From: a virus
Reading direction: 5' to 3' (one strand)
IMG/VR virus record: IMGVR_UViG_3300014501_000023
Span: 1 to 54,378 of that record
DNA: 54,378 nucleotides
How positions within the stretch are numbered: position 1 is the first letter of the stretch; every line of letters starts with the position of its first letter. The notes under the pieces were generated by a model. The model made no database searches. It worked only from the letters and a program-made list of their open reading frames with translations, and was not told the origin of the DNA. Shown here one piece after another: positions 8,206-54,378 of the stretch. The position numbers and the translations under genes are program-made.

Positions 8206-8207
8206 AG

Positions 8208-27972: not shown

Positions 27973-28001
27973 CATCAATCTAACACGAGGTATTTGCAGC
28001 C

Positions 28002-36413: not shown

Positions 36414-37043
36414 ATGAAGATACTTCGTTCATTGATGTTGGCCGGTGCGCTGGCGGCGCTCGCTTGTGCGGCGGGTGCGCAGGTGCCCGGTGGGCTGTGG
36501 CGTTTCGGTACCACGGGCGCGTTTGCCCCGCAGCCCGGGGACTGCGTCAGCATTCTGGCGATGAATTCGAGCGGGCAGACGGGCACGGACTCGGCAACGC
36601 CATGTTCGCCCGCATTCCTCACTACTGCCTACACCAACGCGGCGCTCACAACCTACACCGCGGTCCTCGCCCTGCCGACCACTCAGGCTTCGACCGTGGT
36701 GGCCGGGGAGTGCGACTTAATCTGGGAGGACAGCTCGACCTCCGGCACCGCGACCTTCGCCGCCGGTCTCTCTGCGACGCCGACCGATCTCTGGGTCAAT
36801 GCTTCCTCGAGCGCTGGTGCGTACACGGCCCCCGCTTACACGACGATCGCAAACACCACGATCACCGCTGTCACTACTGCGCTGGCCGCTACCGCGGCGA
36901 CCACGCCCTACAGGACGCACCTGTCGTTCGTGCTGCAGAATTCCGCCATTGCGGCCAATATCTTGACTGTTTATGCACAATCAAATTCAGCGAGCTATAC
37001 ATTGACGGTCGAGCCCGGAAGCTGGTGCGCTTGGGTGCCGTAA
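36414..37043 (+). CDS. Exported beta-rich protein next to the sheath gene
   Basis: 209 residues. MKILRSLMLAGALAALACAAGA|QVPGG is a clear Sec signal (signal peptidase I site after AGA). The mature part is a Thr/Ala-rich beta-type domain (TAVLALPTTQASTVVAGECDLIWEDSSTSGTATF ... LSFVLQNSAIAANILTVYAQ) with Cys residues that could pair. AGGACAT lies upstream. An exported protein directly before the tail sheath gene is out of place for an ordinary myovirus. Function unknown. Confidence 0.7.
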   Translation: MKILRSLMLAGALAALACAAGAQVPGGLWRFGTTGAFAPQPGDCVSILAMNSSGQTGTDSATPCSPAFLTTAYTNAALTTYTAVLALPTTQASTVVAGECDLIWEDSSTSGTATFAAGLSATPTDLWVNASSSAGAYTAPAYTTIANTTITAVTTALAATAATTPYRTHLSFVLQNSAIAANILTVYAQSNSASYTLTVEPGSWCAWVP

Positions 37044-37097
37044 GGCACGGGCGGCTCAAGGTCCTGGCTGCACTAACCATATAAGCGGAGCAATTCA

Positions 37098-38594
37098 ATG
37101 CCTACGATCCCGTTTTCTACCGTCGCTGACATCATCCCCGGCGTGATCTCAGCCGGCGGGGCCGCGGTGGACCTGAGCGCCGTGGTGCTGTCGGAAAGTA
37201 TTTATGCGCCGCAGAACGAGGTGCTGGGGTTCCCGAACTACGTTGACGTGGCCGCTTACTTCGGCTCCGCGAGCCCAGAGGCGGCGATCGCGAGCATTTA
37301 TTTCCAGGGGCCTGAGAACGCGCTGGCCTCCCCTGGCATGCTCTACTTCCTGGGGTACGCGGAGGCGGCGGTCCCTGGGTGGCTACTCGGCGCCGCCAGC
37401 ACCCCCGCGACGCTGACCGCGCTGCAGGCGCTGGCCTCCGGCACGCTCATCATCACGGTGGCCGGTACGGTGTTCACCTCGTCCTCGATCAACCTGTCCG
37501 CCGCCAGCAGCTTCAGCGCCGCCGCAGCCGACATGCTGGCCGCCTTCACCGCGCCCACCTTCACCATCACCTACGACGCGCTGCACCAGGCGTTCCTCAT
37601 CACCTCCACCGCCACCGGCGTCCTCGAGACCATCACCTACTGCACCGGCACACTGGCCGCGGGCGTTGGCTTGGCGGCGGCCAGCGGCGGTACGCTGAGC
37701 CAGGGCGCGGCGGCCGCGGTACCCGCGACGCAGATGAATTGGCTAGTTGCGAACTTCCAGAATTTTGCCTCGTTTTTCACCACTTGGATGAGCTCACTGA
37801 ACGAGCAGGAGGCATTCGCCAATTGGTCTAACTCACTCTCCCCGCGCTATGGCTATATATCGTGGGATACGGGGGCGGCGGCCGACGTGCTCAACAACCC
37901 CAGTTCGTTCGGCGGTTGGCTCAAGGCCAATTCCATCATCGGTACGTTGCCGGTGTACGGCGCTGCTGTGCACGCGGCCGCCGCCGCCAGCTGGGCCGCC
38001 TCGTGGAACATGAACCAGCGCAACGGGCGCTCGACGCTGTGCTTCAGGGAGTTCGCGGGACTGGCGCCGAGCGTGACGGACTCGCTGACCTACAGCAACG
38101 TCACTTCCAACGGTTACAACGTCTACGGCGCCTTCGGCAGCAATAACCCCGCGAACAACGCGGACTGGATGACGCCGGGGTCAATCTCGGGCGAGTGGCT
38201 GTGGGCCGACACGTACTACGGGCAGATCGTGCTCAACTCGAACCTTCAGGTCGGGATCGTCGACGGCCTGAGGTCAGTGGGGCAGGTGCCGTACAACAGT
38301 GACGGTGACGCGCAGCTGGCCAGCTTCTGCGCACCGGCGATAAAGGCGGCGCTGAACTTCGGCACCATCCGCAAGGGCGTAAACCTCTCGGCCTCGCAGA
38401 TCGCGCAGGTCATCGACCTCGTCGGCTCTGACGTCTCACCTACCATCACGGCGCAGGGCTACTACCTGTATACCGACGCCGCTGGCACGGCGGCCAATGT
38501 GCGCGCGGCGCGGCAATCGCCCCCAGCGATCCTGCTCTATCAGGATGGCGAGTCGATTCAGTCGATCACTATGCCATCTTTGGTCATTCAGTAA
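37098..38594 (+). CDS. Tail sheath protein, DUF3383 family
   Basis: 498 residues; the contractile sheath. DUF3383 features: N-terminal VADIIPGVISAGGAAVDLSAVVLSE, a middle with NWLVANFQNFASFFTTWMSSLNEQEAFANWSN, and a C-terminal QIVLNSNLQVGIVDGLRSVGQVPYNSDGDAQLASFCAPAIKAALNFGTIRKGVNLS with the conserved YxxDAAGTAANVRAARQSPP end. This protein defines the morphology as myovirus. It is followed by the tube gene, the usual order. Confidence 0.92.
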   Translation: MPTIPFSTVADIIPGVISAGGAAVDLSAVVLSESIYAPQNEVLGFPNYVDVAAYFGSASPEAAIASIYFQGPENALASPGMLYFLGYAEAAVPGWLLGAASTPATLTALQALASGTLIITVAGTVFTSSSINLSAASSFSAAAADMLAAFTAPTFTITYDALHQAFLITSTATGVLETITYCTGTLAAGVGLAAASGGTLSQGAAAAVPATQMNWLVANFQNFASFFTTWMSSLNEQEAFANWSNSLSPRYGYISWDTGAAADVLNNPSSFGGWLKANSIIGTLPVYGAAVHAAAAASWAASWNMNQRNGRSTLCFREFAGLAPSVTDSLTYSNVTSNGYNVYGAFGSNNPANNADWMTPGSISGEWLWADTYYGQIVLNSNLQVGIVDGLRSVGQVPYNSDGDAQLASFCAPAIKAALNFGTIRKGVNLSASQIAQVIDLVGSDVSPTITAQGYYLYTDAAGTAANVRAARQSPPAILLYQDGESIQSITMPSLVIQ

Positions 38595-38606
38595 GGAGGC
38601 CAAGCA

Positions 38607-39044
38607 ATGGCCGGTTCAATCACTAGCGCAAATACGTCCATCACGCTCACCATCCCCGGGGTCTTTAGCTCCGGTGTGCTGCTGCAGAACTTCGCGGTCA
38701 ATGACATCTTGGAACCCGACCCGCAGACCCTCACCGAGTCGCGCGTGGGGGCGGACGGGGAAGTGGTCGGCGGGTACGTGTTCAACCTCGCCAAGTTCCG
38801 CATAATGTTTCAGGCGAACTCGGACTCAATAGCGGCGTTCTACGCCTGGAAGGCAGCACAGGATGCGGAGACTGACGTCATTGCGGCAAGCATGAAAATT
38901 ATTTCCCCGAATCTAGGTCTCGACGTCAACCTCGAGGACGTGTACTGCGAGACGCTGCCGTTCATGCCGCCGCTCAAGAAGGTGGCCGAGGAGCTGACGG
39001 TCACGATGACCGCCAACCCCGGATGGCAGACCACGAGCACCTGA
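38607..39044 (+). CDS. Tail tube protein
   Basis: 145 residues with a good GGAGG site. Beta-rich: SITSANTSITLTIPGVFSSGVLLQNFAVNDILEPDPQTLTESRVGADG, then VVGGYVFNLAKFRIMFQANSDSIAAFYAW, LGLDVNLEDVYCE. Length and place after the DUF3383 sheath match the small tube proteins of this phage type (DUF3277-like). Confidence 0.82.
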   Translation: MAGSITSANTSITLTIPGVFSSGVLLQNFAVNDILEPDPQTLTESRVGADGEVVGGYVFNLAKFRIMFQANSDSIAAFYAWKAAQDAETDVIAASMKIISPNLGLDVNLEDVYCETLPFMPPLKKVAEELTVTMTANPGWQTTST

Positions 39045-39048
39045 GGGC

Positions 39049-39477
39049 GTGGCGCTCAAGGAGCTAGACGTCACGATCAATGAGGGGCGGGACGCTGGCA
39101 AGACCTATCACCTCAAAGAGTGGCCCGCGATGCGCACCGAGCACTGGGTCATGCGAGCGGTATTCGGGCTGGGGCGCGCGGGGGTAGAGATCCCGCCCGA
39201 GATCCTTTCGCTCGGCGCCGGTCCCACAGCGTACGCGATCGCGAGCCAGGCGATCAAGATGCCTTCGCGCTTGGGGATAAGGCTGGCCGATGAGCTGATG
39301 GAGTGCGTGACGATCGCCGAGCCCAAGGTGACGCGCGGGCTGGTCGAGAATGACATCGAGGACTTCAGCACGCGACTGTTTCTGAAGGGGCAGGTGCTCA
39401 AGTTGATGTTCGGTTTTTTTCTGCCCGCCGCTTCCCCGAGCTCGACACCGGTGGCGAGCGGCGCCCCAAACAAGTAA
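39049..39477 (+). CDS. Tail assembly chaperone (G-type), zero-frame product
   Basis: 142 residues from GTG 39049. Lies between tube and tape-measure genes, where phages encode two chaperones joined by a frameshift. Contains YHLKEWPAMRTEHWVMRAVFGL and a conserved helical centre ending FLKGQVLKLMFGFFLPAA. The codons GGT TTT TTT CTG at 39412-39423 include the slippery heptamer T-TTT-TTT (39414-39420); see the extended product. Confidence 0.85.
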   Translation: MALKELDVTINEGRDAGKTYHLKEWPAMRTEHWVMRAVFGLGRAGVEIPPEILSLGAGPTAYAIASQAIKMPSRLGIRLADELMECVTIAEPKVTRGLVENDIEDFSTRLFLKGQVLKLMFGFFLPAASPSSTPVASGAPNK

Positions 39478-39650
39478 GGACCGCGAGCGTCAACGCGGTG
39501 GTCGCCGCGGTGGTCGCCGCGAATGACGCCACGCTATATGAGCTGCAGACCATCTACGGGCTCGAGGACCTGTGGACGATGTTCGAGATCCGTGCGGTCG
39601 CGAATCACAACGAGTACCTGGCGGCGAAGAGCGCCAACAAAGGGCGGTGA
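39049..39650 (+). CDS. Tail assembly chaperone extended product (GT-type) by -1 ribosomal frameshift
   Basis: Slipping back one base on the seven-T run (39414-39420) moves translation into a frame open to TGA 39648-39650, giving a 200-residue protein. After GFF it continues S-A-R-R-F-P-E-L-D-T-G, then AVVAAVVAANDATLYELQTIYGLEDLWTMFEI and YLAAKSANKGR. The extension has no start codon of its own with a ribosome-binding site and fills the gap to the tape-measure ATG at 39654. This is the lambda G/GT layout: the long form binds the tape measure through its T part. Confidence 0.85.
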
Positions 39651-39653
39651 GCC

Positions 39654-41372
39654 ATGCCGACTATAATTGATTCGCTGTTCTTAGAACTGGGCATCGACAC
39701 CAGCAGGTTCAGCGCTGACCAGGTCAAGGCGCTTGGTAAGATGCAGGAGTTCGAGACGCGCGCGAAGCGCGCGGGCAAGGGCGGCGGGGACGCCGTCAAG
39801 AGCGTGGGGGACGCGTTCCGCGACCTTGCCAAGAGCACGAGCATAGGCTCGGGTGTATCGCGAATCGAGGACTTGTCGAAGAAGGTCACTGGCCTGGGCA
39901 AAAGTCTGGGCGTCGCGGGCGGCGTCGGTGGGCCGCTCGGCGCCGTGACGCGGGGCATCGGCGCGTTGCTGTCGCCGACCGCAATACTCGGTGCGGCCGT
40001 CGGCGTGGTCGGCTATGAGATGTGGGACCTCAATAAGGTCATGACGGCAAACAACGCTGCCATAGACCGCCAGGCGCAGCTCACCGGCACCAGCGCTGCA
40101 AACATGTGGGCCTGGGCCGAAGCGGCGAAGACCGTGGGCGCCAACCCGATGGAGATTTCTGGCGGCATTGCGAGCCTGCAGACCGCGATCATGGGCATGG
40201 GCATCGGCGTCGGCAACGCCACCCCGCAGCTGGCTGCGCTGACGCGTTTGCGCGTGCCGTGGAGCTTGCAGAAGGGCGCTGATATCGAGGCGTTTTTCAC
40301 GCGGGTGAACAAGCTGGCGGCGGAGAGTAAGTTTGGTATCGGCCCCGGTTCCAAGCCGCTGGGGGCGTTGGTGGCGCTTGCGCAGCAGGCGGGGATGAAC
40401 GATGCTATGGTCGCTCTGGCCACCAACCCGACCACGACGCCTGCCGAAATTAAGAAGTGGATTGATAGCAAGAAGGGCGTGGAGCTCGGTACTACGCTGC
40501 AGGAGTCTCTGAAGAGCCAGACGATCCTGGGCAAGCTCGGGATCGAGAAAGACATCCTCTCCGAGACCGCCTATGGCGGCGAGCAGGGGTTGATGCAGGC
40601 GGTGGTCGAGTTGCTGACCAAGTTGCTCGACCTCACCAACACCCTGGTCATCTACGTAGGCTCGATTGTGCACGCGATTCCGGGGGCCATGGATTGGCTC
40701 GGTCACAAGGTGGTCGAAGGTATGGACGCGATCACTGGTGTGCAGCCCATCAAGCCGCTACCAGCCGACGCGGTCGCGCGCCAAGCGGCTGCACTGAAGT
40801 ATCTCGTGGGCCAAGGGGTCCCAGCCATGGAGGCGGCGGCCATGGTCGGTAACTGGTCGCAAGAATCGAGCATGGATCCATTGGTGACCAATCCTAGCGG
40901 TCACAAGGGCCTCGGGCAATGGGACGCCTCGCGACAGAAAAACTTTGAACAGTTTGCCGGCTACCGTATGGGGCCGCAGAGCGGTGTGTCAAACGACAAG
41001 CAATTCTGGGATCAGATTAAGTTCTCGTTGACGGAGCCTCAGTATAAGAAGGCGCGAGAGATGATGGCTAAGGCACATAGCCTGGCGGAAGCAACGGCCA
41101 TATTCCAGCGGCTCGACGAAATAGTCTACGATGCGTCCGGCCCTCGGCGACTCGCCTTTGCACAAGCCGCACTCGCCGCCGCTAGCAATGGGTCCACGCA
41201 GAGCACCAGCACCTCGACGCACGAAATCAACATTGGCGACATCCACGTCGCGAGCAACGCAACTAACGGCGTTGACATGGCGCGCGATATGCGCCGCTCG
41301 CTAGCAAGACAGCCACTGCTGGGGCCGTTGGCGACGCAGACGATGACCCTGGCCACGCGCGGTTCGCAATAA
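39654..41372 (+). CDS. Tape measure protein with C-terminal tail lysozyme domain
   Basis: 572 residues. N-terminus DSLFLELGIDTSRFSADQVKAL and a coiled/hydrophobic middle (PLGAVTRGIGALLSPTAILGAAVGVVGYEM) fit a tape measure. Residues about 380-510 form a phage tail lysozyme-type domain: AALKYLVGQGVPAMEAAAMVGNWSQESSMDPLV (catalytic-type Glu near 402), then GHKGLGQWDASRQKNFEQF. It would cut peptidoglycan during DNA entry. At this length the tail is short (order of 80 nm by the usual rule). No separate endolysin gene was found in this window. Confidence 0.85.
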   Translation: MPTIIDSLFLELGIDTSRFSADQVKALGKMQEFETRAKRAGKGGGDAVKSVGDAFRDLAKSTSIGSGVSRIEDLSKKVTGLGKSLGVAGGVGGPLGAVTRGIGALLSPTAILGAAVGVVGYEMWDLNKVMTANNAAIDRQAQLTGTSAANMWAWAEAAKTVGANPMEISGGIASLQTAIMGMGIGVGNATPQLAALTRLRVPWSLQKGADIEAFFTRVNKLAAESKFGIGPGSKPLGALVALAQQAGMNDAMVALATNPTTTPAEIKKWIDSKKGVELGTTLQESLKSQTILGKLGIEKDILSETAYGGEQGLMQAVVELLTKLLDLTNTLVIYVGSIVHAIPGAMDWLGHKVVEGMDAITGVQPIKPLPADAVARQAAALKYLVGQGVPAMEAAAMVGNWSQESSMDPLVTNPSGHKGLGQWDASRQKNFEQFAGYRMGPQSGVSNDKQFWDQIKFSLTEPQYKKAREMMAKAHSLAEATAIFQRLDEIVYDASGPRRLAFAQAALAAASNGSTQSTSTSTHEINIGDIHVASNATNGVDMARDMRRSLARQPLLGPLATQTMTLATRGSQ

Positions 41373-42244
41373 TGTCCGTACCCTTCACCGCCGATAGCGA
41401 CGTCACTGCTGACAGCAGCATCACTGTCGATAACCCGCCGGGCTTCAGCGCGCAATACCCGAATGTGCCGGCGATGGCAGGGGTGCCGTTGCTTGCGCGG
41501 CAGCAGACCGCGGCCGTGGTCAGCGCCGCCGCAAGCGGTCCAGGGCTGAATGCGGCGCTCGCCGCGCAGCTCGGGCTCCCGCCGGGAACCGTGTTCGGCA
41601 GTAGCTCACTGTACACGGGGCTGAACTTAGAGCCCCTAGACCCGAACTATGGTTTTTTGAATGCGAGCAACGACACCGGTGAGTTAAACTATTTTCTGAT
41701 TCCAGACTCCGTAGTTGAACTCGAGGTCAGCGCTGACTCTACCATTAACTCACATCCGATCGAGCGGGGGCAGTTCGAGGCTTACAACCGCGTGCAGAAC
41801 CCGGCGCGCGTGCGGCTGCTGCTGGCGTGCCAGGGCAAGAAGATGGCATACACTGACTTCCTCTCGACGCTGAAAAGTTTGCGCGAGGGGACAGAGACCA
41901 TAACGCTCGCGCTTCCTAACGACTCCTATGATAACATGGCGCTGAAGGGTTATGGCTACGCCCGTAAGGCTGAGCGCGGCGCCATGACGATCTGGGCCGA
42001 TACGCAGTGGGAGGAGGAGCGGTCGACCAACGTCATGGTGAGTGCCCCGCCGACCACAGAGCCGCAAGGCGAGGCTCCGGTTGATCTTGGCTCGTTATCG
42101 CCCGCATTTCCGTCTTTAGCGCAGCAAGCGGCGATTTCTAATCCGCCATTTGTACCAGCGCAGTATACCAACCCGCAACAGGTTGCCGCTGGTATCACCG
42201 CTATGGGCAACGGTGGGTCGCCGCCGTCGGGGGCAGCGCAGTGA
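41372..42244 (+). CDS. Baseplate/distal tail protein (Dit-like)
   Basis: 290 residues; start ATG shares a base with the tape-measure stop (TAATG). The N-terminus is disordered; the centre LNYFLIPDSVVELEVSADSTINSHPIERGQFEAYNRVQNPARVRLLLACQGKKMAYTDFLSTLKSLREG resembles the N-terminal domain of Dit-like proteins, in which the strand 'SHPVE.G....D.....P..I.L...' is followed by helices. The C-terminal 60 residues are Pro/Ala/Gln-rich. It connects tube and hub in comparable baseplates. Confidence 0.72.
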   Translation: MSVPFTADSDVTADSSITVDNPPGFSAQYPNVPAMAGVPLLARQQTAAVVSAAASGPGLNAALAAQLGLPPGTVFGSSSLYTGLNLEPLDPNYGFLNASNDTGELNYFLIPDSVVELEVSADSTINSHPIERGQFEAYNRVQNPARVRLLLACQGKKMAYTDFLSTLKSLREGTETITLALPNDSYDNMALKGYGYARKAERGAMTIWADTQWEEERSTNVMVSAPPTTEPQGEAPVDLGSLSPAFPSLAQQAAISNPPFVPAQYTNPQQVAAGITAMGNGGSPPSGAAQ

Positions 42245-42537
42245 CGCAGCAAGTCATCCCTCTTCAGGCGCTGCCGGCGCAGACGTTTGAGGCGACGCTC
42301 GGTACCCAGGACTGTGAGATCTCGCTGCAACAGATGGCCACGGGGCTGTTTGCGAGCCTCAGCGTTAGTGGTGCGCCAGTTATCTCCGGCCGCTACTGCA
42401 ACGACCGCGTCGGGCTCGTGCGGCAGGCGTATCTCGGGTTCGCTGGCTGGCTGTACTTCGTCGACACGCAGGGTGACTGTGACCCGTACTACGAGGGTCT
42501 TGGTACGCGCTACATCCTGGTCTACGAGTCCGCTTGA
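42241..42537 (+). CDS. DUF6983 family baseplate protein
   Basis: 98 residues, overlapping its neighbour by 4 bases. IPLQALPAQTFEATLGTQDCEISLQQMATGLFASLSVSGAPVISGRYCNDR, then YLGFAGWLYFVDTQGDCDPYYEGLGTRYILVYE: the order of DUF6983 proteins, including the near-terminal FVDTQG..DP.Y.GLG.R block. Such proteins sit between Dit and hub genes. Confidence 0.85.
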   Translation: MTQQVIPLQALPAQTFEATLGTQDCEISLQQMATGLFASLSVSGAPVISGRYCNDRVGLVRQAYLGFAGWLYFVDTQGDCDPYYEGLGTRYILVYESA

Positions 42538-43446: not shown

Positions 43447-44123
43447 GCGCGGTGTTTACGAACTTTGACCCCTCGAGCATCACGACCGAGGCGCGGCGCG
43501 TACATGCCCTGATCCTCTCGCTCATTAAAGACGTCCGCACCGCGATCCCGGTAAAGGTTGTGGCGGTGCACCCAGGCGCGGGCACTCCACCCGTGATCGG
43601 CACGGTAGACGTGCAGCCGCTGGTGCAGACGGTCGATGGTTCGGGCAAGCTCTGGGCGCTAGGCGTGACGTATGGGGCCACGTTCTGCCGCATCCAGGCC
43701 GGCGCCACCGCCATCGTTGTCGATCCGGCAGTGAATGACATTGGGCTGGCGATCGCGTGCGACCGCGATATTTCCTCTGTCCTCGCATTGGGAGCGGCGC
43801 TGGCTACCCCAAGCAACGACCAAATCCCGGGCCCCGGTTCGGCGCGCACGCACGACATTTCGGACCTGGTTTACCTGTACTCAGTCGTCAGCGCTGCGGC
43901 GATCACGCAGTACATTCTGGCGAACGCGGAGGGCATTACACTGTTGTCGCCCAACACGATCACTATACAAGGGGCGCAGATCAACATGACAGGTCCAATT
44001 AACGCCAACGGCGCTACGGTAAGTAACGCGGGTGAGATCACTGACGCTCTAGGCGTCGTGCTCGGTACGCATATTCATACCGGCGGGACGATCAGTGGCG
44101 ACACCGGGCCGCCGGTTCCATGA
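43443..44123 (+). CDS. Baseplate spike protein (Gp138/gpV-like) with HxH tip
   Basis: 226 residues from GTG 43443 (GTGA coupling). N-terminal OB-like part: TEARRVHALILSLIKDVRTAIPVKVVAVHPG and VQPLVQTVDGSGK; middle DRDISSVLA; then a repeated strand region (EGITLLSPNTITIQGAQINMTGPINANGATVSNAGEITD) typical of a triple-stranded beta-helix needle. The end, VLGTHIHTGGTISGDTGPPVP, has the HxH (His 210, His 212) that in P2- and phi92-type spikes coordinates iron at the tip. It pierces the outer membrane during infection. Confidence 0.9.
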   Translation: MSAVFTNFDPSSITTEARRVHALILSLIKDVRTAIPVKVVAVHPGAGTPPVIGTVDVQPLVQTVDGSGKLWALGVTYGATFCRIQAGATAIVVDPAVNDIGLAIACDRDISSVLALGAALATPSNDQIPGPGSARTHDISDLVYLYSVVSAAAITQYILANAEGITLLSPNTITIQGAQINMTGPINANGATVSNAGEITDALGVVLGTHIHTGGTISGDTGPPVP

Positions 44124-44548: not shown

Positions 44549-44550
44549 GC

Positions 44551-46041
44551 GTGGCTGCTCCCACGACCAACGTCCCGCCGATCACGTGGGTCAACGGCAT
44601 GCCGGTGGTGCCGACCGAGGCGGCGGTGCTGGCCGGGCGCGCGGCGGACTTCACCGCCGCCTACGGCAGCGCGCTCAACACCGCCCCCACCACCCCACAG
44701 GGGCAGGTGATCGCGAGCGACACGGCGATCATAGGCGACGCCAACGGGCAGATCGCCTACGCGGCCAGCATGGTGGACCCGGACCAGGCCGAAGGGGCGT
44801 GGCAGGATGCGATCGGTGCCATTTATTTCCTGACGCGCATAGCTGCCGCGGGCTCCGTGAAGACCGTGACCTGCATCGGCGGGGCCAATGTCATGATCCC
44901 GGCCGGCGCGTTGATCCAAGATCCCAGCGGCTACTCCTGGGCCGCCAACGGCCCCATTAACCTGGGTCCCACCGGGCAGACCGCTGGCACGTTCCAGTGC
45001 ACGACGCCGGGGCCGATCCCGTGGCCCGGGAACACGCCTTGCACGATCTTGACGCAGGTCAATAATTGGGACCAGGTGGTCAGCGCCAGCGCGGCCGCGC
45101 TCGGGAACCTGACCGAGGGGCGCGCGGCGTTTGAGAACCGGCGGCGCAATTCCGTAGCGATCAATTCGCAGGGTCAGACCGCGGCCATTTACGGCGCCGT
45201 GTTGGCGGTGCCCAACGTTCTGTCCGCCTACGTTGTCGACAACCCCACCAGCGCGACGGTTAACGTCGGGGCGACCGGTTACGCGGTGGTTCCGCACTCG
45301 GTGCTGGTGAGCGTTTACGGCGGGGTCGCAGCGGCCGTTGCGCAGGCGATTTGGAGCAAGAAGAGCGGGGGTTGTGGCTACAACGGCAACACGACCTACA
45401 CCGTTGCCGACACCTCCTACCCTGTCGGCTCGCAGCCTCAGTACCCGGTCACGTGGCTCACGCCGACGCCGACACCGATATACATAGCGGTCGCGCTGCA
45501 GAACAACGCGCTGCTGCCGCCCAATATAGCGGCGCTGATACAAGCGGCGGCGCTGGCGACCTTCACCGGCACCGATGCCGCGAGCTCTGTGCCGGCGGGC
45601 ATCGGGCTCACCATCTCAGGCTCGCGCTACGCGAGCCAGATGAACCTGATCAGCCCAGCGGTCAATATCGAGAGCATCATGGTGGGCCTGCAGACCGCAG
45701 TTCCCGGCGAGGTCGTGGGGACTGGCAACGGCTCGACCGTTACTTTTGCGCACACAGCCGCTCACCTGGCGGTGGTCCCGGGGGCCGTGGTTATCGCCGC
45801 CGGCGCGGTGATGGCGACCGACGATGGCAATGGCAATCTCGTGGGGACAGGCATCGCCGCGGGCTCCACTATCAACTACGCCACCGGTGCAATCAGCATC
45901 ACCTACAGCACAGCGCCCGCGAATGCCGTAGTGATAGCCATGAACTACAACTACGCCAATCCCGCCAGCGGCATCGTGACGATGGGCGTGGATCAGATGC
46001 CGACGCTGACGGCGCCGAGCGTCGTGGTGATGCTGGTGTGA
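44551..46041 (+). CDS. Baseplate J-like wedge protein
   Basis: 496 residues. N-terminal helix-rich part (AAVLAGRAADFTAAYGSALNT; TPQGQVIASDTAIIGDANGQIAYAASMVDPDQAEGAWQDAIGAIYFLTRI), a beta domain (VKTVTCIGGANVMIPAGALIQDPSG), then GRAAFENRRRNSVAINSQGQTAAIYGAVLAVPNVLSAYVVDNPT: the Baseplate_J core order. The C-terminal part adds a strand-rich insertion before VDQMPTLTAPSVVV. It joins the hub to the fibres. Confidence 0.88.
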   Translation: MAAPTTNVPPITWVNGMPVVPTEAAVLAGRAADFTAAYGSALNTAPTTPQGQVIASDTAIIGDANGQIAYAASMVDPDQAEGAWQDAIGAIYFLTRIAAAGSVKTVTCIGGANVMIPAGALIQDPSGYSWAANGPINLGPTGQTAGTFQCTTPGPIPWPGNTPCTILTQVNNWDQVVSASAAALGNLTEGRAAFENRRRNSVAINSQGQTAAIYGAVLAVPNVLSAYVVDNPTSATVNVGATGYAVVPHSVLVSVYGGVAAAVAQAIWSKKSGGCGYNGNTTYTVADTSYPVGSQPQYPVTWLTPTPTPIYIAVALQNNALLPPNIAALIQAAALATFTGTDAASSVPAGIGLTISGSRYASQMNLISPAVNIESIMVGLQTAVPGEVVGTGNGSTVTFAHTAAHLAVVPGAVVIAAGAVMATDDGNGNLVGTGIAAGSTINYATGAISITYSTAPANAVVIAMNYNYANPASGIVTMGVDQMPTLTAPSVVVMLV

Positions 46042-46592
46042 AGAACTGGAGCCAAACGCTGATCAACCGGTTCGCGGGCACTCCGATCCTCGTCGCGCTG
46101 ATCTCTTCATTCGATGCGGCGGTGGACCCGGTGCCGAACCTTCAGGCGTTCCTCAAGTACATCTGGAACGTCAGGAGCGCGGTCGGCTACGGGCTGAATG
46201 TGTGGGGCACGATCGTCGGGGTATCGCGCGTGATCTCGACCCCCAGCGGCCCCATCACGCTGGACGACGCTGACTACCAGACGCTGATCCTGGTCAAGGC
46301 GGCCGCCAACATCGGCAACGTATCAGTGCAGGCGCTGAACCAGTTGCTGACGGCGCTCTTTGCCGGCTTCGGGGTGGTGTACGTTCAGGATAATCTGAAC
46401 ATGACGCTGACCTACGTGTTCCTCTTCCAGCCGACCGCCGCGCAATTGGCGATCATCCAGTACTCCGGGGTGATGCCGCGGCCGGCCGGGGTGCTGATCA
46501 CGGGGAACATATTTGAGAACGAGCTGGGGCCGCTCAACACAGTGCCGCTTAACTCCTGGCCGCTCAACCAGTTTGTCTTGAAAGGAATTTGA
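46038..46592 (+). CDS. DUF2612 family baseplate/tail protein
   Basis: 184 residues from GTG 46038 (GTGTGA junction). DUF2612 order: LINRFAGTPILVALISSFDAAVDPVPNLQAFLKYIWNVRSAVGYGLNVWGTIVGVSR, then ADYQTLILVKAAANIGNVSVQALNQLLTALF and a final ENELGPLNTVPLNSWPLNQFV. Found last in the baseplate operon of related phages, before the fibre genes. Confidence 0.88.
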   Translation: MKNWSQTLINRFAGTPILVALISSFDAAVDPVPNLQAFLKYIWNVRSAVGYGLNVWGTIVGVSRVISTPSGPITLDDADYQTLILVKAAANIGNVSVQALNQLLTALFAGFGVVYVQDNLNMTLTYVFLFQPTAAQLAIIQYSGVMPRPAGVLITGNIFENELGPLNTVPLNSWPLNQFVLKGI

Positions 46593-46599
46593 AACCACA

Positions 46600-48063
46600 A
46601 TGCTGCGAAAACTGCTTCTAGGCTTGGCGCTGTGCCTCGGCGCGCTCAGCATTGATGGGCGCGCGAACGCTGCCACCGGCAGCGGCATTCAGCAATTCAG
46701 CAACAACGGCGTCACCACCCTCGTCGCTTCCGCGACCTCCTCCGCCACCACGATCACGGTGGCGTCGAACGCTACATTTCCGACGCTCAGCAGCGGTAAC
46801 TGGTTCATCGCGACCTTGGAGCACCTGACCGCGGGCCTCGTGACGGCGGACGAGATCATAAAGGTCACGGCCGATTCGAGCACTACGTGGACGGTGGTGC
46901 GGGCGCAGGAGGGCACGACGGGGTTGAGTTGGTCCTCGGGCGACACCGTGACGCTGCTGCCTACGGCCGGAGGACTGGCGCAGTTCGTGCAGCCAGCGCA
47001 GGCGCAGTCGCAGAGCTACAATTACGCGGCCGCGTCGGTCGGCGGTTCGAACAATTACTCGGTCACGCTGTCGCCGGCGCTCGTCACGCACGTGATCGGC
47101 ATGCCGATCACCTTCAAGGCTCCTGGCAGCGCCAACACTGGCAGCAGCACATTTAATGACGGCGCTGGGGTCGGGACCATTGTGCAGCCGTATGCCGCTG
47201 CGGCCCTTGCCGCCGGGGACATACCCGCGGGCGGCATGGTCACGGTCGTATGGGATGGGACCAACTTTCAGCTGACCAGCGTATCAGTCGCCATTGCGAA
47301 CGCTGTGCTGCTCAACCCGTATGGAGGCGCGGCGCAGACGATCACCGGCCCGATCATACTGGCCTCGACATTCCCCGAGCTTTTCTTCTCGACGACCGGA
47401 GCCCCTACCAACCAGGGCCTCTGGCTAGCGGCCACCACTAGCACCCAGTGGGCGCTGCAGGCCCTGAGCGATAACGAGAGCATTGTCAACAATGCGATCT
47501 TGGTGAACCGCGTCGGCGACGTGATCACCAGCGTCGCGCTAGCCGGCACATCGCAGACAGGGGCGACGCAGACTTCGAGCGACAACAGCGCGAATTTCGC
47601 GACCACCGCGTTCGTGAAGAACGTGCTGGCCGCTTCCCCAGCGCTCGGCGGCGTGCCGACCGCGCCCACCGCCTCACCCAGCAGCACCAGCACGACGCAG
47701 GTCGCATCGACCGCGTTTGTGCAATCCGCGATAGCCGCTGCGCTCGTGACCGGCACCGTTGGCACGAGCGGCTCGATAACCATCAACGTCGCCGGCGCCC
47801 CTCACGGGGCGGTCATCATCAAGTGGGGATTCGTGACGCCTGGGAACACGTATACGGGGAGCTCGACACAGCCGATCACTTTCCTAACTCCATTCCCGAA
47901 TGACATTTATTTTGCCGCCGCCTTCAGCAATCGCAACACCAAAAGCACATATGGATTCGGGAACATACCTTATGCGAATCTAGCGACTAATGGTTTTTTG
48001 GCTGTACTGGATGCCGATTCCAGCGGCAACATGAGCGGCGAGTGGATCGCGATAGGAGATTGA
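46600..48063 (+). CDS. Tail fibre with N-terminal Sec signal peptide
   Basis: 487 residues, preceded by AAAGGA. MLRKLLLGLALCLGALSIDGRANA|ATG is a textbook Sec signal, followed by ATTITVASNATFPT and IIKVTADSSTTWTVVRAQEGTT, the common 'tail-fibre N-domain' repeat style; then NSANFATTAFVKNVLAASPALGGVPTAPTASPSSTSTTQVASTAFVQSAIAAAL fibre shaft and a C-terminal gp53-like tip (PITFLTPFPNDIYFAAAFSN ... GNMSGEWIAIGD). Fibre body and export signal in one protein is odd: a virion fibre needs no export. Either it is secreted, or the signal acts as a hydrophobic plug. Confidence 0.8.
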   Translation: MLRKLLLGLALCLGALSIDGRANAATGSGIQQFSNNGVTTLVASATSSATTITVASNATFPTLSSGNWFIATLEHLTAGLVTADEIIKVTADSSTTWTVVRAQEGTTGLSWSSGDTVTLLPTAGGLAQFVQPAQAQSQSYNYAAASVGGSNNYSVTLSPALVTHVIGMPITFKAPGSANTGSSTFNDGAGVGTIVQPYAAAALAAGDIPAGGMVTVVWDGTNFQLTSVSVAIANAVLLNPYGGAAQTITGPIILASTFPELFFSTTGAPTNQGLWLAATTSTQWALQALSDNESIVNNAILVNRVGDVITSVALAGTSQTGATQTSSDNSANFATTAFVKNVLAASPALGGVPTAPTASPSSTSTTQVASTAFVQSAIAAALVTGTVGTSGSITINVAGAPHGAVIIKWGFVTPGNTYTGSSTQPITFLTPFPNDIYFAAAFSNRNTKSTYGFGNIPYANLATNGFLAVLDADSSGNMSGEWIAIGD

Positions 48064-48067
48064 GACA

Positions 48068-48331
48068 ATGTCCATACGTTCAACAGTCACCGCCGGTACC
48101 TGGCAGCAAGTCGGCACCGGGCCAGCGACCGTGCAGCTCATCTCCCCGGACGCCGACGAGGCCGAGGTCATGGTGGCGTGCGCCGCCTCGGCCCCCAGCA
48201 CCAACAGCGATGGCATGGTGCTGTATTCGCAGTACCCGGCGCACCTCTTCACGCTGACCGAGCCGATCTGGGCGCAGACGGTGCAAGCGGGGCTCACGGC
48301 CGAGGTGGCCGTGCAGCCGGAGGTCGCGTGA
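48068..48331 (+). CDS. Hypothetical fibre-associated protein
   Basis: 87 residues, strand-rich: IRSTVTAGTWQQVGTGPATVQLISPDADEAEVMVACAAS, then LTEPIWAQTVQAGLTAEVAVQPE. Small beta proteins of this kind often sit beside fibres. Overlaps the next GTG (GTGA). Confidence 0.62.
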   Translation: MSIRSTVTAGTWQQVGTGPATVQLISPDADEAEVMVACAASAPSTNSDGMVLYSQYPAHLFTLTEPIWAQTVQAGLTAEVAVQPEVA

Positions 48332-49695
48332 TCAGGCGACTGCTGCTAACGCTGTGCGCAGCGCTCCTTGGCGTCTACCACGTCACGGCGCGCGCGCAGG
48401 CGCCGGAGTACGTGTACTGCATCAACGCGACCAGCACCCAGTGCAATACGACCAGCAATCCAGGCAACGGCACCCAGGGGGATGATTCGTGGTTGGCCTT
48501 CGGCAAGCTCAACCTCGACCTCCTAGCGCTGCAACCGCCGACGCCGCAGTACTCGGTGGTCTATGCCAATGGTTCCAGCTATTCGGGACTTCTGCCCGGC
48601 GCGACCGGCACCTGGTGCCTGCAATGGAACAACCTCACCTCCGCCCCATCGCTGACGGCGTGCCCGGGCGCTGGGGCGTTGTCCTTCGCTTTGGTCTCCT
48701 CCGGCACCAACACCGCCACGCTGCACATCGGCACTGGCGGCTCGCTCAACGCCACCGGCAGCGGCGTGCTTGCCGCAACAACGGCCGCAGCGCTGGCCGC
48801 GACGCCGACGCAGTGCTCGGGCGGCACGCCCCTGGCGACCGGCGTCGCGGCGAACGGCAACGCTAATTGCACGGGCGCTGGCTCGAATGCTTGGAGCGCC
48901 GTCACGGCGGGCACCAATGCGCAGGCCCTTGTCATTGGCACCGGCGGCTCGCTGAGCACGTCGGGCACCGGCGCGATCGTCGCGACCTCGACCGTTGCGG
49001 GCGCGGTCACGCTGGCGATGATGGCGAACGAAACAGCCGACACGCTGCTGTGCAATAACACTGGCTCGGCTGCGGCGCCGATCGCTTGCACCGTCGCGCA
49101 AGTACTCACGCTGCTGACCTCAACATCCGGCGGCGGCACGACGAACTACCTGCGCGCCGATGGCACATGGGCCGCGCCCCCTGGCGGCGGCGGCTCGCCC
49201 GCCTTCAGCGCCGTGACCGCCGGCATCAATGCCAATGCGCTGGTCATGGGCACCGGCGGATCTCTGAGCGTCTCAGGCACCGGCTCGATCGCCGCGACCA
49301 CCGCAGCGGCGCTGGCCGCGACGCCGACGCAGTGCTCGGGCGGCACGCCCCTGGCGACCGGCGTCGCGGCGAACGGCAATGCGAACTGCACCGCTGCGGG
49401 CGCTCAGACGATTGCTGCCGGGGCCACTGCGCTGCCAACCGCTGCCGTGTCAGCGAACAGTTGCAGCGCGAGCGCCACAACGGCGACCGCGACCGGGGTG
49501 GCTACCACTGATGCAATGGAGGTAGCCTACGCTTCTGATCCCACGGGGGTTACGGGTTACGGCGGCGGGACGAACGGCGGTATAACGATCAGGCCCTGGC
49601 TCACCACAAATACTTTCAACGTCAAGCTGTGCAACGAAACCGCGAGCTCCATCACCCCAGGGGCGCTAAGCGTTAATTGGAGAGTGGCGCGGTGA
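48328..49695 (+). CDS. Exported fibre-like protein with internal repeats
   Basis: 455 residues from GTG 48328. MIRRLLLTLCAALLGVYHVTARA|QAP is a Sec signal. The mature chain is a Gly/Ser/Thr/Ala-rich beta-type fibre with repeats: AATTAAALAATPTQCSGGTP occurs twice, as does the neighbour type SAVTAGxNAxALVxGTGGSL. DNA of the first repeat is identical over 71 bp. It contains TNYLRADGTWAAPPGGGG, a phrase typical of phage fibre proteins. The C-terminal 60 residues (GGGTNGGITIRPWLTTNTFNVKLCNE) form a separate tip domain. Confidence 0.72.
   Translation: MIRRLLLTLCAALLGVYHVTARAQAPEYVYCINATSTQCNTTSNPGNGTQGDDSWLAFGKLNLDLLALQPPTPQYSVVYANGSSYSGLLPGATGTWCLQWNNLTSAPSLTACPGAGALSFALVSSGTNTATLHIGTGGSLNATGSGVLAATTAAALAATPTQCSGGTPLATGVAANGNANCTGAGSNAWSAVTAGTNAQALVIGTGGSLSTSGTGAIVATSTVAGAVTLAMMANETADTLLCNNTGSAAAPIACTVAQVLTLLTSTSGGGTTNYLRADGTWAAPPGGGGSPAFSAVTAGINANALVMGTGGSLSVSGTGSIAATTAAALAATPTQCSGGTPLATGVAANGNANCTAAGAQTIAAGATALPTAAVSANSCSASATTATATGVATTDAMEVAYASDPTGVTGYGGGTNGGITIRPWLTTNTFNVKLCNETASSITPGALSVNWRVAR
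48790..49379 (+). repeat. Identical 71-bp direct repeat inside the fibre gene
   Basis: Positions 48790-48860 and 49309-49379 are identical over 71 bases and lie 519 bases apart in the same frame, while adjacent repeat-related sequence has diverged. This argues for recent conversion between the copies. Confidence 0.85.
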
Positions 49696-51632
49696 GACGT
49701 TGGCTATCGCCGCTGCTGCTCCTCTGGTGCGGGCTCACATGCGCGCAGAGCCTGCCGATGGGCGGTATCCCAAGCGGCAGCTGCATCCCCACGGTCGTGC
49801 AGAAGGTCACCGGCGGCGGCCTAAGCGCTGGCGCCCTGTCAGTCTCAGCGACGATTACAGGTGTTGTAGCGGGCGACGCGCTCTTCGTCCCGCTGGCACA
49901 TTCGGATACCAGCGGCACTAATCCGACGATCACAGTCTCAGACGCCCAGGGCGCGTACACTGGCGACGCCGTGGTACAGCGCGGCAACCAGATCGACGTC
50001 GGCATCTACACTCTTTTCAACGCGAACGCTGGTTCGCACACGATCACGGCCACCGCGAGCAGTGGCACGGTGGGAGCCAGTTCCTACGCGATCGAGGTGC
50101 TCGAGGGTAATTGCTTAGGTAGTACCGACTCGCTCGATCAGAAGTCAACACTCAGCGCGAACACCAGCGCGACGCCCACCACCGGCACCACCGCGGCGCT
50201 GGCGCAGGGTAGCGAGTTCGTCGTGACGGCGATGTCCGGCAACATGGACAACCTGACCGGGGGCACGTTCCCGCCGACCGGCGGCAATAACTCGCCGTTC
50301 ATTTCGATCTTCTCCAACGCCGCCGGCACGCCTTACCAGGCTATCGACTCCGATTACCAGATCAATACGACCGCCACCACCGGCGTCGCGGCGGCGTATG
50401 GCACGATGAGCAACAGCCAGATCTGGGGCGCGGTGATCGCTACCTACAAGGCCTCGGCCTCTGGAGGCGGAGGCGGCGGGGGCGGCGGGGGCGGCGGCAC
50501 CGGAGTCAAGTGGCACCCCGGGCACTACTGCCTGAGCAATCAGGTCGTATCGTCCTCCAACTGGGGTACCTCCGAGGGGCTCGTCGAGGGCGAGATCAAC
50601 TCATGCCTCTCGCAGGCCAATGTGCAGGGTTACTTGATGATCCTGTACTGGAACGCGATCGAGAATGCGACGCTGGGCTCCTACAGCTGGACCTACATCG
50701 ACACGATCCGCACGTACATCCAGACCAACTACCCGGGCAAGCGCTTCGCGGTGATGATCTGGTCTGAGGCCTTCGGCGGTAGCAACCCGGCGAGCAACCT
50801 GCCGAGCTACATCACGACCGGCTCGGGGTACGGTGCCGGGAGCAATGGCACGCAGTACGGTTACTGGGCCTTCGCGGGCGCCGGCTACACGGCCGCCTGG
50901 TGGCGCTCGGTGGTGATGGCGAGGGTGGAGGCGCTGTTCGCGGCGTTCGCTGCTCATACGTCCCCTTACACCGGCGGCGTCTGCTCATCGGGGTGCACAT
51001 ACGACACGGACCCGTATTTCGAGGCGGTGACGTGGCAGGAGTCCACCATGTCGCTGGCCTCGACGCCGGGCGACTACAGCTTCAGTGCGGCACAGACGCA
51101 GTACCAGAACCTGATCGCTGACATGGTGAGCTACTTCCCGCACACCAACGTCATCGACCAGAACAACTTCCTCGGCTACACCGGCGGCAGCATCAACACG
51201 ACCGGCAACACGACCGTGACCGATGCTGGCGTGAGCGCCGCGATCGGCGGCTCCGACACCTCTTACCCGCTCAGCAACCTGAGCTGGGGCCAGCTGGCCT
51301 TCATGGGCTACGCGAACTGCGGCGGCTGCGGCCTGACCTCTGGCTTCGTGAGTCTCTACGGCACTGCGGCCTCGCTCGCGTTCGTCGAGACGCCGGACTA
51401 CACGTACACGCTCGCGCACCTCAACCAGGCTTCAATGAACACACCGACCGCCTCCCCAGGCGGCATGGGTGCCTCTGAAGTTTACTGGGGCATCGAAAGT
51501 ACTGGCAGCGGTAACGCTGGCGATTGGGCGACCGAGGTGCTGCCGAACATCAACGCCACGCCGATCCCTACGGGGAACAAGACGTGTCCGAGCAAGTACA
51601 CGAGCCTGCGCGGCGGCTGCAACACGACGTGA
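49692..51632 (+). CDS. Exported glycosidase-like protein with Ig-like N-domain and poly-Gly linker
   Basis: 646 residues from GTG 49692. MRRWLSPLLLLWCGLTCA|QSL is a Sec signal. Residues about 30-250 are an Ig-like beta domain (ALSVSATITGVVAGDALFVPLAH; GTNPTITVSDAQG; NQIDVGIYTLF). Twelve Gly in a row link it to a C-terminal domain of about 380 residues with TIM-barrel glycosidase character: GYLMILYWNAIEN, WTYIDTIRTYIQTNYPGKRFAVMIWSEAFGG, DPYFEAVTWQEST, VYWGIEST. Two Glu (WNAIEN region and VTWQEST) could be the acid/base pair; this is inferred. Probably attacks a host surface polysaccharide. Confidence 0.68.
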   Translation: MRRWLSPLLLLWCGLTCAQSLPMGGIPSGSCIPTVVQKVTGGGLSAGALSVSATITGVVAGDALFVPLAHSDTSGTNPTITVSDAQGAYTGDAVVQRGNQIDVGIYTLFNANAGSHTITATASSGTVGASSYAIEVLEGNCLGSTDSLDQKSTLSANTSATPTTGTTAALAQGSEFVVTAMSGNMDNLTGGTFPPTGGNNSPFISIFSNAAGTPYQAIDSDYQINTTATTGVAAAYGTMSNSQIWGAVIATYKASASGGGGGGGGGGGGTGVKWHPGHYCLSNQVVSSSNWGTSEGLVEGEINSCLSQANVQGYLMILYWNAIENATLGSYSWTYIDTIRTYIQTNYPGKRFAVMIWSEAFGGSNPASNLPSYITTGSGYGAGSNGTQYGYWAFAGAGYTAAWWRSVVMARVEALFAAFAAHTSPYTGGVCSSGCTYDTDPYFEAVTWQESTMSLASTPGDYSFSAAQTQYQNLIADMVSYFPHTNVIDQNNFLGYTGGSINTTGNTTVTDAGVSAAIGGSDTSYPLSNLSWGQLAFMGYANCGGCGLTSGFVSLYGTAASLAFVETPDYTYTLAHLNQASMNTPTASPGGMGASEVYWGIESTGSGNAGDWATEVLPNINATPIPTGNKTCPSKYTSLRGGCNTT

Positions 51633-51635
51633 CTT

Positions 51636-52205
51636 ATGCCTCTTGACATCACCGACGACGACGTCTACGCGGGCCTCACCGGCTTCTTGCAACTGGTCGT
51701 GCCGCAGGCCCCTTGGACTTACGCTGGCACGACGTATCCGGCCGTCCCCATTTTGCGCGGGCAGCAGAATCGGGTGCCGATGCCGTCCATCCCCTTCGTG
51801 CTGATGACCACGCTCGGTGCGCCGCGCCGTGTTGGCACCAACGCGGACAGCACCGAGGCCGTGATCGTTGACAGCGTGCTGATCGGGTTCACGGCCGCAG
51901 CCAGAGCGGACTTTGAGTACGCGGTGCAGGCCGACTTCTACTCCCCGCTGGCCGAAGCGTGGTCGATGGCGGTGGAGCTGCTGTGGCGCGACACCATAGG
52001 GATCGCAGCGATGCCGCCCGGCATGAAACCATTGTACTCGGAGGACCGGCGGCAGCTGCCGCTGATCGGCGGGGAGGATCAGTGGGTGCAGCGCTGGACG
52101 ATGACGCTGTACCTGGATTACCAGCCGACGTGGACACAGCCGACCGAGGCGGCCACGGCAATCACGGTCATACCGGAACCGATAGACGTGTTTTATCCCC
52201 CATGA
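51636..52205 (+). CDS. Tail terminator-like protein (LIC_12616/gp12-like), out of usual place
   Basis: 189 residues. YAGLTGFLQLVVPQAPWTYAGTTYPAVPILRGQQNRVPMPSIPFVLMTTL, then VLIGFTAAARADFEYAVQADFYSPLAEAWSMAVELLWRD, and a final DQWVQRWTMTLYLDYQPTWTQPTE: the order of phage neck/tail terminator proteins of the LIC_12616 family. It normally lies between connector and sheath genes; here it is 13 kb further on, among exported fibre proteins. No export signal. Confidence 0.78.
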   Translation: MPLDITDDDVYAGLTGFLQLVVPQAPWTYAGTTYPAVPILRGQQNRVPMPSIPFVLMTTLGAPRRVGTNADSTEAVIVDSVLIGFTAAARADFEYAVQADFYSPLAEAWSMAVELLWRDTIGIAAMPPGMKPLYSEDRRQLPLIGGEDQWVQRWTMTLYLDYQPTWTQPTEAATAITVIPEPIDVFYPP

Positions 52206-52216
52206 GAGGTTTTGAA

Positions 52217-52951
52217 ATGAAGAAGATAATCCCGGTACTCGCGCTCGCAAGCCTGCTGTGCGCATGCTCGGTATTAGCGCCAAAGCCAACCGCGCGTGCC
52301 AAGTTTGGCGCAGTCGCGGCTACTCCATCGCCTAACGGCGCGAAGCTCGTGGGACCCACGGCGGCCGGCTCGCTGATAGATGCAACCGGCAACACCTGGA
52401 CGCTCACGGGCGGACAGCTCTCAGAGAACGGCGGCGCACCGACCGGCCTTAACATCATCCTGACCGAATACTGCGGTGGCCTGATCTATCAGGAGAACGC
52501 GAGCACCCTGTGGTGGGATTCGGTCAGCGGCGCGTGGGTCGCGACCACAGCGCCTGCTACGTGCGGGGCGATTATCGCCGCCGGTGGCAATGCGAACCTG
52601 AGCTGGACGCCGCCGACCACTGACGTGAAGGGGGGTCTGCTTGCGAGCACTCCTGGGGACGCGCTGACCGGTTTCAACATATACCAAGGCGTCGGCGCCG
52701 GCTCACTCGTCAAAATCGCGTCGGTGGCGGCCAACGTGCTCAACTACACCGTGAGCGGCCTGACCGTCGGCTCGTACACGTTCGCGGTCACAGCCACCAA
52801 CGCGGCCGGCGAGAGCGCGGACAGCCCGAGCCAGACCGCGAGCGTCGAGCCGGTGGTGCCGGCGGCTGCGGCGCCCGGCCCCGTGCTGACTTTCACCGTA
52901 GCGTGTTCGGGGCAGAATGGCGTCACGACCTGCACGGTGACGGTCCCGTGA
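52217..52951 (+). CDS. Putative lipoprotein with fibronectin III-like domain
   Basis: 244 residues from ATG 52217, with GAGAGG just upstream; in-frame ATG 52202 overlaps the preceding stop and would add MRGFE. MKKIIPVLALASLLCAC is a lipoprotein-type signal (lipobox L-C-A-C, Cys 17). Next is a strand-rich region (GNTWTLTGGQLSENGG; LWWDSVSGAWVATT), then residues about 110-205 match an FnIII domain: ANLSWTPPTTDVKGGLLAS, LTGFNIYQGVGAGSLVKIASV, YTVSGLTVGSYTFAVTATNAAGESADS. FnIII lipoproteins anchor to membranes and bind glycans. Unusual in a phage fibre cluster. Confidence 0.7.
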   Translation: MKKIIPVLALASLLCACSVLAPKPTARAKFGAVAATPSPNGAKLVGPTAAGSLIDATGNTWTLTGGQLSENGGAPTGLNIILTEYCGGLIYQENASTLWWDSVSGAWVATTAPATCGAIIAAGGNANLSWTPPTTDVKGGLLASTPGDALTGFNIYQGVGAGSLVKIASVAANVLNYTVSGLTVGSYTFAVTATNAAGESADSPSQTASVEPVVPAAAAPGPVLTFTVACSGQNGVTTCTVTVP

Positions 52952-54378
52952 GAGCAATCAGGCTCGCGCTGCTCGCGCTTTTATTTGCCGGCGCTGCGCA
53001 GGCGCAGACCTACGTCGCTGGCGTCACGGTAGGCGCCGTGAGCGGCTCGAACGTAGTGCAAGTCACGCCCACGCCTTCGACGCTCGTGATGCAATGCCTG
53101 CCGGCGTGGCAGCGGGAGTGCTGGCCTGGTACTAGCGGCATCGGCCCCTCTGCCGCTCTCGGTTCACTGGCTGGTTCCGCTTATGTGTGGGCGCTGCTAC
53201 CGCCATCGACGAGCGCGAAGTGGGTCACGGTGGCGGCGATCACCGCGTCTGCGCCTGGTCCGACGCCAGCGCCCACCGTCGCGCTCTCGGCGCAAACCAC
53301 GTTGAATTGGTCGTCCACAGGCACTACCGGCGCGGCGCCTTGCTCGGGCGTCGGAACAGCGGCGAGCGGCTCGCTGAGCGTGTCACCTACTCTCACGACC
53401 ACGTACACGCAGACGTGCAAGGGAGCGGGCGGCACGGCGAGCGCATCGGTCACGGTGGCCGGCGTGATGCCGGTAACGCCGCCGCCTCCACCACCTCCAC
53501 CGCCTCCACCGCCGCCTCCACCGCCGCCTCCACCACCACCGATCACAAACAACTGCGGCATGCAGCTCGGCGGTCCGGCGGCTTTTTGCTTCACGTTCGA
53601 TACGCCGATGGTGGTGGCCGGCACGCGCACTGGCGCGCTCGACCCGAACGTCTGGGGCGTGTCACGCACGATTGGCGATAGTGGGCTGAACCTTGGGCAG
53701 AGCGAGTACAACCAATGGAACGCCACGACGATACAGAACTGCACCGGCACGGCAACGGTCACGCCGCCCAACGACATTGCGATCTGCAACGGCCAGCTGC
53801 GTGAAGCGGTCAACGACAATAATAATTCTGCCTTTGAGAACGGCGATGTGACCTCGCTCGCGATGTACCCCAAGCAGCCGTTCGACTTCGCTGGACGCAC
53901 TGGCACCGTGAGCTTCGACGTGTCGAACGATTCGCAGGGATCGCACTCGGTGTGGCCGGAATTCTGGATGTCTGATCAGCCCGTGCCCGATCCGTTCACC
54001 CACGAGGCGACGTGGCAGGCGATGCCGACCAATGGGTTTGGCGTGCGCATGGGCAACGCGGCGCCACCAGGGCAGCAGGGCCAATGCCAGAACGGCAACA
54101 ACCTGGCGAAGTTTCGCTGGAACGTGGACTCTGCGATAGTCGTGCGCAATCACGTTGAGGAAGACACGAACGGGTACGGCACGCCAACCGGCCTGACCGT
54201 GACGAACCTCGACTGCGTGATCTCGTCCAGCGGCCCCGGAAACATGAATCATGTGGAGCTGCGCATCTCGACCAACGAGATCGACGTGTACGCGACGGAC
54301 GCAGGCGTGGCGGCGGCGCTGAGCACGCTGCGTGAGATCACGAAGATCACAGGCGCGAATCTGCCTTTCACTCGCGGC
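52948..54378 (+). CDS. Exported lectin/glucanase-like protein with 21-Pro linker, 3' end outside window
   Basis: Open from GTG 52948 (GTGA coupling) to the window edge, 477 codons without a stop; partial. MRAIRLALLALLFAGAAQA|QTY is a Sec signal. An Ig-like part follows (PTVALSAQTTLNWSSTGTTG; SLSVSPTLTTTYTQTC), then 21 Pro in a row, then a domain starting CGMQLGGPAAFCFTFDTPMVV with YNQWNATTIQ, FDFAGRTGTVSFDVSNDSQG, WPEFWMSDQPVPDPF: the jelly-roll order of concanavalin-like lectin/glucanase (LamG or GH16-type) domains. Absence of a clear catalytic EIDxE is notable, so binding rather than hydrolysis may be its role. Confidence 0.72.
   Translation, partial: MRAIRLALLALLFAGAAQAQTYVAGVTVGAVSGSNVVQVTPTPSTLVMQCLPAWQRECWPGTSGIGPSAALGSLAGSAYVWALLPPSTSAKWVTVAAITASAPGPTPAPTVALSAQTTLNWSSTGTTGAAPCSGVGTAASGSLSVSPTLTTTYTQTCKGAGGTASASVTVAGVMPVTPPPPPPPPPPPPPPPPPPPPPITNNCGMQLGGPAAFCFTFDTPMVVAGTRTGALDPNVWGVSRTIGDSGLNLGQSEYNQWNATTIQNCTGTATVTPPNDIAICNGQLREAVNDNNNSAFENGDVTSLAMYPKQPFDFAGRTGTVSFDVSNDSQGSHSVWPEFWMSDQPVPDPFTHEATWQAMPTNGFGVRMGNAAPPGQQGQCQNGNNLAKFRWNVDSAIVVRNHVEEDTNGYGTPTGLTVTNLDCVISSSGPGNMNHVELRISTNEIDVYATDAGVAAALSTLREITKITGANLPFTRG

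Follow-up and report, generated by a model that had tools for sequence, protein, structure and literature searches.

Predicted Sec signal peptides on tail-fibre-module proteins of an uncultivated myovirus

In canonical tailed-phage (myovirus) assembly, tails are built wholly in the cytoplasm and no export is involved. We therefore asked what signal peptide-like leaders are doing on the proteins of a myovirus tail-fibre module, and whether proteins carrying them could leave the cytoplasm and still join the virion. The stretch of DNA analysed, hereafter the window, is virus record IMGVR_UViG_3300014501_000023 from IMG/VR (linear, 54,378 nt, GC 65%). Early genes occupy the minus strand. From ~14.9 kb a myovirus late block runs along the plus strand, its frame set by PHROG matches to portal, head protease and major head protein. 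Relatives, designated by L-numbers, are metagenomic contigs plus public phage regions, with genes from our own gene caller; a search for the host through prophage relatives in genome contigs found none. Marker genes in and around the fibre module are as follows.

35415, plus strand: neck (PHROG match)
37098, plus strand: sheath (PHROG match)
39049, plus strand: chaperone (PHROG match)
39654, plus strand: tape measure (PHROG match)
42538, plus strand: hub (PHROG match)
44120, plus strand: wedge (PHROG match)
44551, plus strand: baseplate J (PHROG match)
46041..46592, plus strand: gpI-like gene, canonical tail-fibre neighbour (phrog_587, E 2.5e-41)
48068..48331, plus strand: 87-aa leaderless protein that travels with fibre and portal genes (conserved family A3)

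Family A3 lies 3' of the fibre in some relatives and 3' of the portal in L037-L039 and L042. The neck-terminator gene (51636-52205) is located within the fibre module, and its homologues in L014, L017, L082 and L088 lie among neck genes, directly 5' of the sheath; in the window it is 36414 that stands 5' of the sheath. The head maturation protease (22192-24453) has a NUDIX-type N-terminal domain, residues 32-154 matching phrog_1198 and residues 257-740 phrog_3778, and there are long homologues in L037 and L038. An 855-aa protein (30740-33307) contains many AITEGADTVSASGAVxVSG-type repeats, and a partial similar gene occurs in L014. On the minus strand, a cluster of small membrane or lipoprotein-like genes (7004-10246; among them 7004 and 9629) gave no significant Pfam match and may be the lysis module.

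The leadered proteins of the late block are listed next.

18672..19046, plus strand: small exported protein (predicted) in the head region, 4 Cys; leader 18672-18737, cut ARA^D
28407..30695, plus strand: large exported spike-like protein (predicted), 16 Cys; leader 28407-28469; C-terminal stretch like L013
36414..37043, plus strand: 209-aa exported fibre-like protein (predicted), four conserved Cys; leader 36414-36479, cut AGA^Q
46600..48063, plus strand: main tail fibre, directly 3' of the gpI-like gene (Gp53-like_C, E 8e-7; fibre PHROGs, E 3e-18)
46600-46671, plus strand: leader of 46600, cut ANA^A (leader rule and reading)
46690..47020, plus strand: virion-docking N-terminal fibre domain, immediately 3' of the leader (AF2, Foldseek, phmmer)
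48328..49695, plus strand: exported fibre-like protein (predicted), 12 Cys; leader 48328-48396, cut ARA^Q, then C-x7-C and an NPGNGTQGD domain
49692..51632, plus strand: exported protein (predicted), 10 Cys; leader 49692-49745; poly-Gly linker
52217..52951, plus strand: probable lipoprotein, FnIII-like (L-C-A-C; sub-threshold fn3 match)
52948..54378, plus strand: exported protein (predicted), 10 Cys; leader 52948-53004, cut AQA^Q; poly-Pro linker

Leaders were called by a rule of our own, distinct from SignalP, that combines a von Heijne-type matrix with limits on charge and hydrophobicity. All eight starts named in the sequence-only reading (18672, 28407, 36414, 46600, 48328, 49692, 52217 and 52948) bore out its description (8/8): a positively charged n-region leads into a hydrophobic core free of charge, followed by an AxA-type site. 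Seven of them, 52217 excepted, are signal peptidase I-like with small residues at -3/-1. The rule was positive for 8 of the 48 late plus-strand window genes, and shuffling those 48 within each protein gave a mean of 0.78 leaders (maximum 5; 300 runs), ruling out chance or composition as their source. As background, the rule called 1.1% of internal windows and, among spurious ORF starts, 1.7%. In nine public phage regions, 4 of 205 annotated genes were called (versus 8/48, Fisher p 2.7e-4), namely a Pantoea phage lysozyme, the phiAO1 spike-like protein and two Burkholderia phage DC1 fibres, the latter two false on reading. Among the head, neck and tail-core homologues of the lineage there was a single call (1/149), a borderline tube protein in L017. 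On reading the leaders, we found the Tat motif S/T-R-R-x-F-L-K to be absent, RR being present without the remainder. Judged from sequence, all eight window leaders are real, and the low rule rates in both the controls and the virion-core genes indicate that they are restricted to fibre- or adhesin-type genes. It is extremely improbable that the leaders merely reflect the choice of starts or a genome rich in GC and in alanine and leucine: the rule does make occasional false calls (the two DC1 fibres and the L017 tube protein), but chance would supply 0.8 of 48 and the leaders are conserved across relatives.

That conservation, which the sequence-only reading had proposed looking for in related fibre modules, was found: relatives retain leaders despite sequence drift. 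Mean leader identity in three families was 0.35, 0.35 and 0.45, in a table where some cuts from our own cut-site predictor fall a few residues off; in a simple neutral simulation at the same divergence a leader survived in 24-34% of runs per pair, a figure that is indicative only, as the pairs share ancestry. Within the 36414 family, every relative whose start is clear is leadered; AQ at the cut and four Cys are invariant, and the gene varies in position within the late operon among relatives. The structure model of 36414 (pLDDT 69) had no significant fold match; the best, the chlamydial Pgp3 fold (TM ~0.37), was non-significant and was not used. The L083 homologue of 18672 (77% identical) is leadered too. 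A ninth gene, at ~27984, is leadered in relative L086 (12106), and the window copy keeps the body without a leader or clear start; an ORF that reads as a GIY-YIG-type homing endonuclease (27259-28406) ends just 5' of this body.

The 48328-type N-terminal domain is likewise leadered in all relatives found. In L005, L041 and L081 its leader is of lipoprotein type, with the mature QQVIYC start still recognisable; at L005:18059-19816 this leader is fused 5' of a domain that has signal peptidase I leaders in relatives, and its lipobox (V-S-G-C) is canonical by eye with an LPAM_1 score under the cut-off. The domain also matched phrog_677, a baseplate-wedge fibre connector, but weakly (E 0.04), and this match was not used; within 48328 a GTG at residue 29 with a weak Shine-Dalgarno site is a possible internal start. 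Fibre-diagnostic domains also occur in leadered proteins of relatives, with an S74 endosialidase-type chaperone in L072:2348 and Gp53-like_C in L004:8816; leadered L004:18900 has a chitobiase C-terminal-type domain. By eye, several leadered N-termini look like common leaderless fibre starts; a profile search gave no significant match, and no homologous N-termini were found in cultured phages for leadered N-domains other than that of 46600.

The most informative member of the set is the main tail fibre, 46600. Its docking domain (AF2 pLDDT 89, from an alignment of 19 sequences) had as its best solved match by Foldseek 8JOV chain 1 (TM 0.77, 41% identity), the tail fibre in the portal-tail complex of Ralstonia phage GP4. 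In phmmer, residues 32-142 of 46600 aligned with residues 5-112 of the GP4 fibre (E 7.9e-13), and the start of the GP4 fibre therefore corresponds to the end of the leader. A single-protein query with 46600 found no relatives; an alignment query did. Leaders precede four of 24 aligned copies of the docking domain (the window, L002, L003 and L004); each of the 20 copies in other phages lacks one and has its start at the leader end. Because these 20 begin where the leader ends, the alignment indicates that the 46600 leader is an addition to an ordinary virion-docking fibre. The sequence-only reading had held that relatives starting after the leader would tell against it; such starts exist for this domain in distant phages, where they date the leader as an addition and do not refute it, and not in the three close relatives, which are leadered. 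Identification as a tail fibre rests on the 8JOV-type N-domain, Gp53-like_C and the position after the phrog_587 gene. No second, leaderless fibre of the 46600 type was found in the window, and a dual start yielding a leaderless virion form was ruled out, there being no internal start near the leader.

We also compared cysteine content, which was 1.80 per 100 residues in mature leadered proteins versus 0.68 in leaderless late window proteins (window alone, 56/3012 versus 52/7687; p 2e-7). Even Cys counts were found in 16/20 leadered proteins versus 39/98 controls, and none of 5000 permutations had short-range Cys pairs as tight as those of the leadered proteins; these tests overstate independence, since several of the 20 are homologous, and control proteins also show some pairing (1/2000 permutations). 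The pattern is as expected of oxidative folding outside the cytoplasm. The 46600 fibre, however, contains no Cys, against three in the homologues from L003 and L004. The best chemical indication of export is thus absent where it is most needed, which counts against the export model proposed below. Leader conservation, leader swapping and Cys pairing together lend support to the earlier idea of an exported set within the tail operon.

The suggestion that several of these proteins have fibre, Ig/FnIII, lectin or glycosidase-like bodies held in part. Tail-fibre identity is genuine for 46600, and in 52217 there is an fn3 match below threshold, its L-C-A-C fitting a relaxed lipobox only. 49692 has, by eye, an Ig-like region and an enzyme-like C-terminal half, and 52948, truncated by the contig end, has a C-terminal part that by eye likewise recalls an enzyme or lectin; searches of both for glycosidase, lectin and catalytic families gave no significant family or PDB match. 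A secreted glycoside hydrolase was recognised in relative L076, where a GH26 domain is joined to the 48328-type leadered domain (E 1e-11), and a leaderless GH44 gene lies at the end of L003.

These observations suggest the following model. Late in infection, the fibre-module proteins would be synthesised as Sec preproteins, mostly of signal peptidase I type with some lipoproteins, which would cross the inner membrane and shed their leaders. They would fold and form disulfides in the periplasm as the assembly of heads and tail cores goes on in the cytoplasm. Lysis would mix the two pools, whereupon fibres with docking domains, 46600 above all, could mount on the baseplate; enzyme- or adhesin-like members would probably be active in the envelope or lysate too. 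The leadered proteins are very probably exported by Sec with cleavage of the leader, and, given export, the chance that they join virions at lysis is not far short of even. For late export followed by joining as a whole, we estimate a probability of about 0.4. In T4, fibres can attach to otherwise complete fiberless particles (PMC3004832), and late joining is therefore physically possible.

That the proteins are exported and never enter virions is possible rather than probable. They would then act in the periplasm, at the surface or in the lysate, masking receptors against superinfection, keeping progeny off debris or degrading host polysaccharide. The linkers and enzyme-like layouts of 49692 and 52948 agree with such free action, as do the GH26 and GH44 genes of L076 and L003, the lipoprotein forms in L005 and at 52217, and the precedent of exported Cor/Llp-type lipoproteins, which block the phage's own receptor and adjoin tail-fibre genes (PMC13164509). 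In L005, moreover, the canonical position after gpI is occupied by fibre-like genes that lack leaders, and the exported lipoprotein is encoded separately, an arrangement consistent with distinct roles for the two kinds of protein and one that speaks against joining. Free action sits poorly, however, with 46600, whose docking domain is intact right after the cut site in the canonical fibre position. Late joining is narrowly favoured over free action in the envelope because of this intact domain, the canonical gene position, the lack of any other such fibre in the window and the T4 precedent.

Two further explanations concern the leader itself. If uncleaved, it could be a hydrophobic anchor in the baseplate or inner membrane, and the fibre does dock by its N-terminus and the leaders are hydrophobic. 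We consider this plug, which the sequence-only reading had offered as its other option, very unlikely: AxA^Q-type cut sites are kept while the core drifts, L005 has a lipoprotein leader instead, and leaders also occur on proteins without docking domains. Leaders might alternatively have no role, having arrived through upstream fusions or along with exported genes captured from a host; the proteins would then be misrouted or overproduced. The derived nature of the 46600 leader and the one apparent loss in the window (~27984) would agree with this, but leaders persist in several families and in independent phage contigs even though their sequences have drifted strongly, and their type is swapped, not lost, making this explanation unlikely as well. 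At less than even odds, we tentatively propose a new route of tail assembly: fibres would be exported, undergo oxidative folding in the periplasm and be mounted on tails at lysis, several uncultivated lineages having added signal peptides to ordinary fibre N-termini. If so, Sec-routed fibres would uncouple receptor binding from particle assembly, disulfide-stabilised fibres would become possible, and a cell's receptors might be masked from within before it lyses. A further caution is that, in uncultivated phages, fibre genes may be misfiled as host secreted proteins.

Exported phage proteins are already known, among them lysis enzymes, Cor/Llp lipoproteins and Lom; for tail fibres, a search of the open-access literature, which misses most subscription papers, brought up no report of signal peptides. 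The signal-peptide or SAR endolysins fOg44 Lys44 and JG068 gp47 are tailed-phage proteins of the Sec route (PMC6116005; PMC3765740), but they are lysis enzymes, whereas the window proteins are of fibre or adhesin type. Cor/Llp proteins resemble the window set in being exported, with Cor-type genes adjoining tail-fibre genes (PMC13164509), and lambda Lom bears a signal peptide and is encoded between the tail-spike and tail-fibre genes (PMC12309495). Cor/Llp proteins are small outer-membrane receptor-blocking lipoproteins, whereas most window members are large and non-lipoprotein; 52217 is a possible candidate for this type. The tail region of Acetobacter phage phiAO1 encodes an 820-aa tail-spike-like protein with a leader (PhiAO1_380; L033:24345-26807; tail-spike PHROG matches), of a spike family that differs from the window fibres, and the next gene (26868) also reads as exported; its authors call phiAO1 possibly degenerate, and their text does not mention signal peptides (PMC8566455). 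Unlike the envelope proteins Cor/Llp and Lom, 46600 is a fibre with a virion-docking domain. The GP4 fibre shares that domain and the Burkholderia phage DC1 fibres align over it, yet the GP4 and DC1 proteins start at the domain, whereas the window and its three close relatives place a signal peptide before it.
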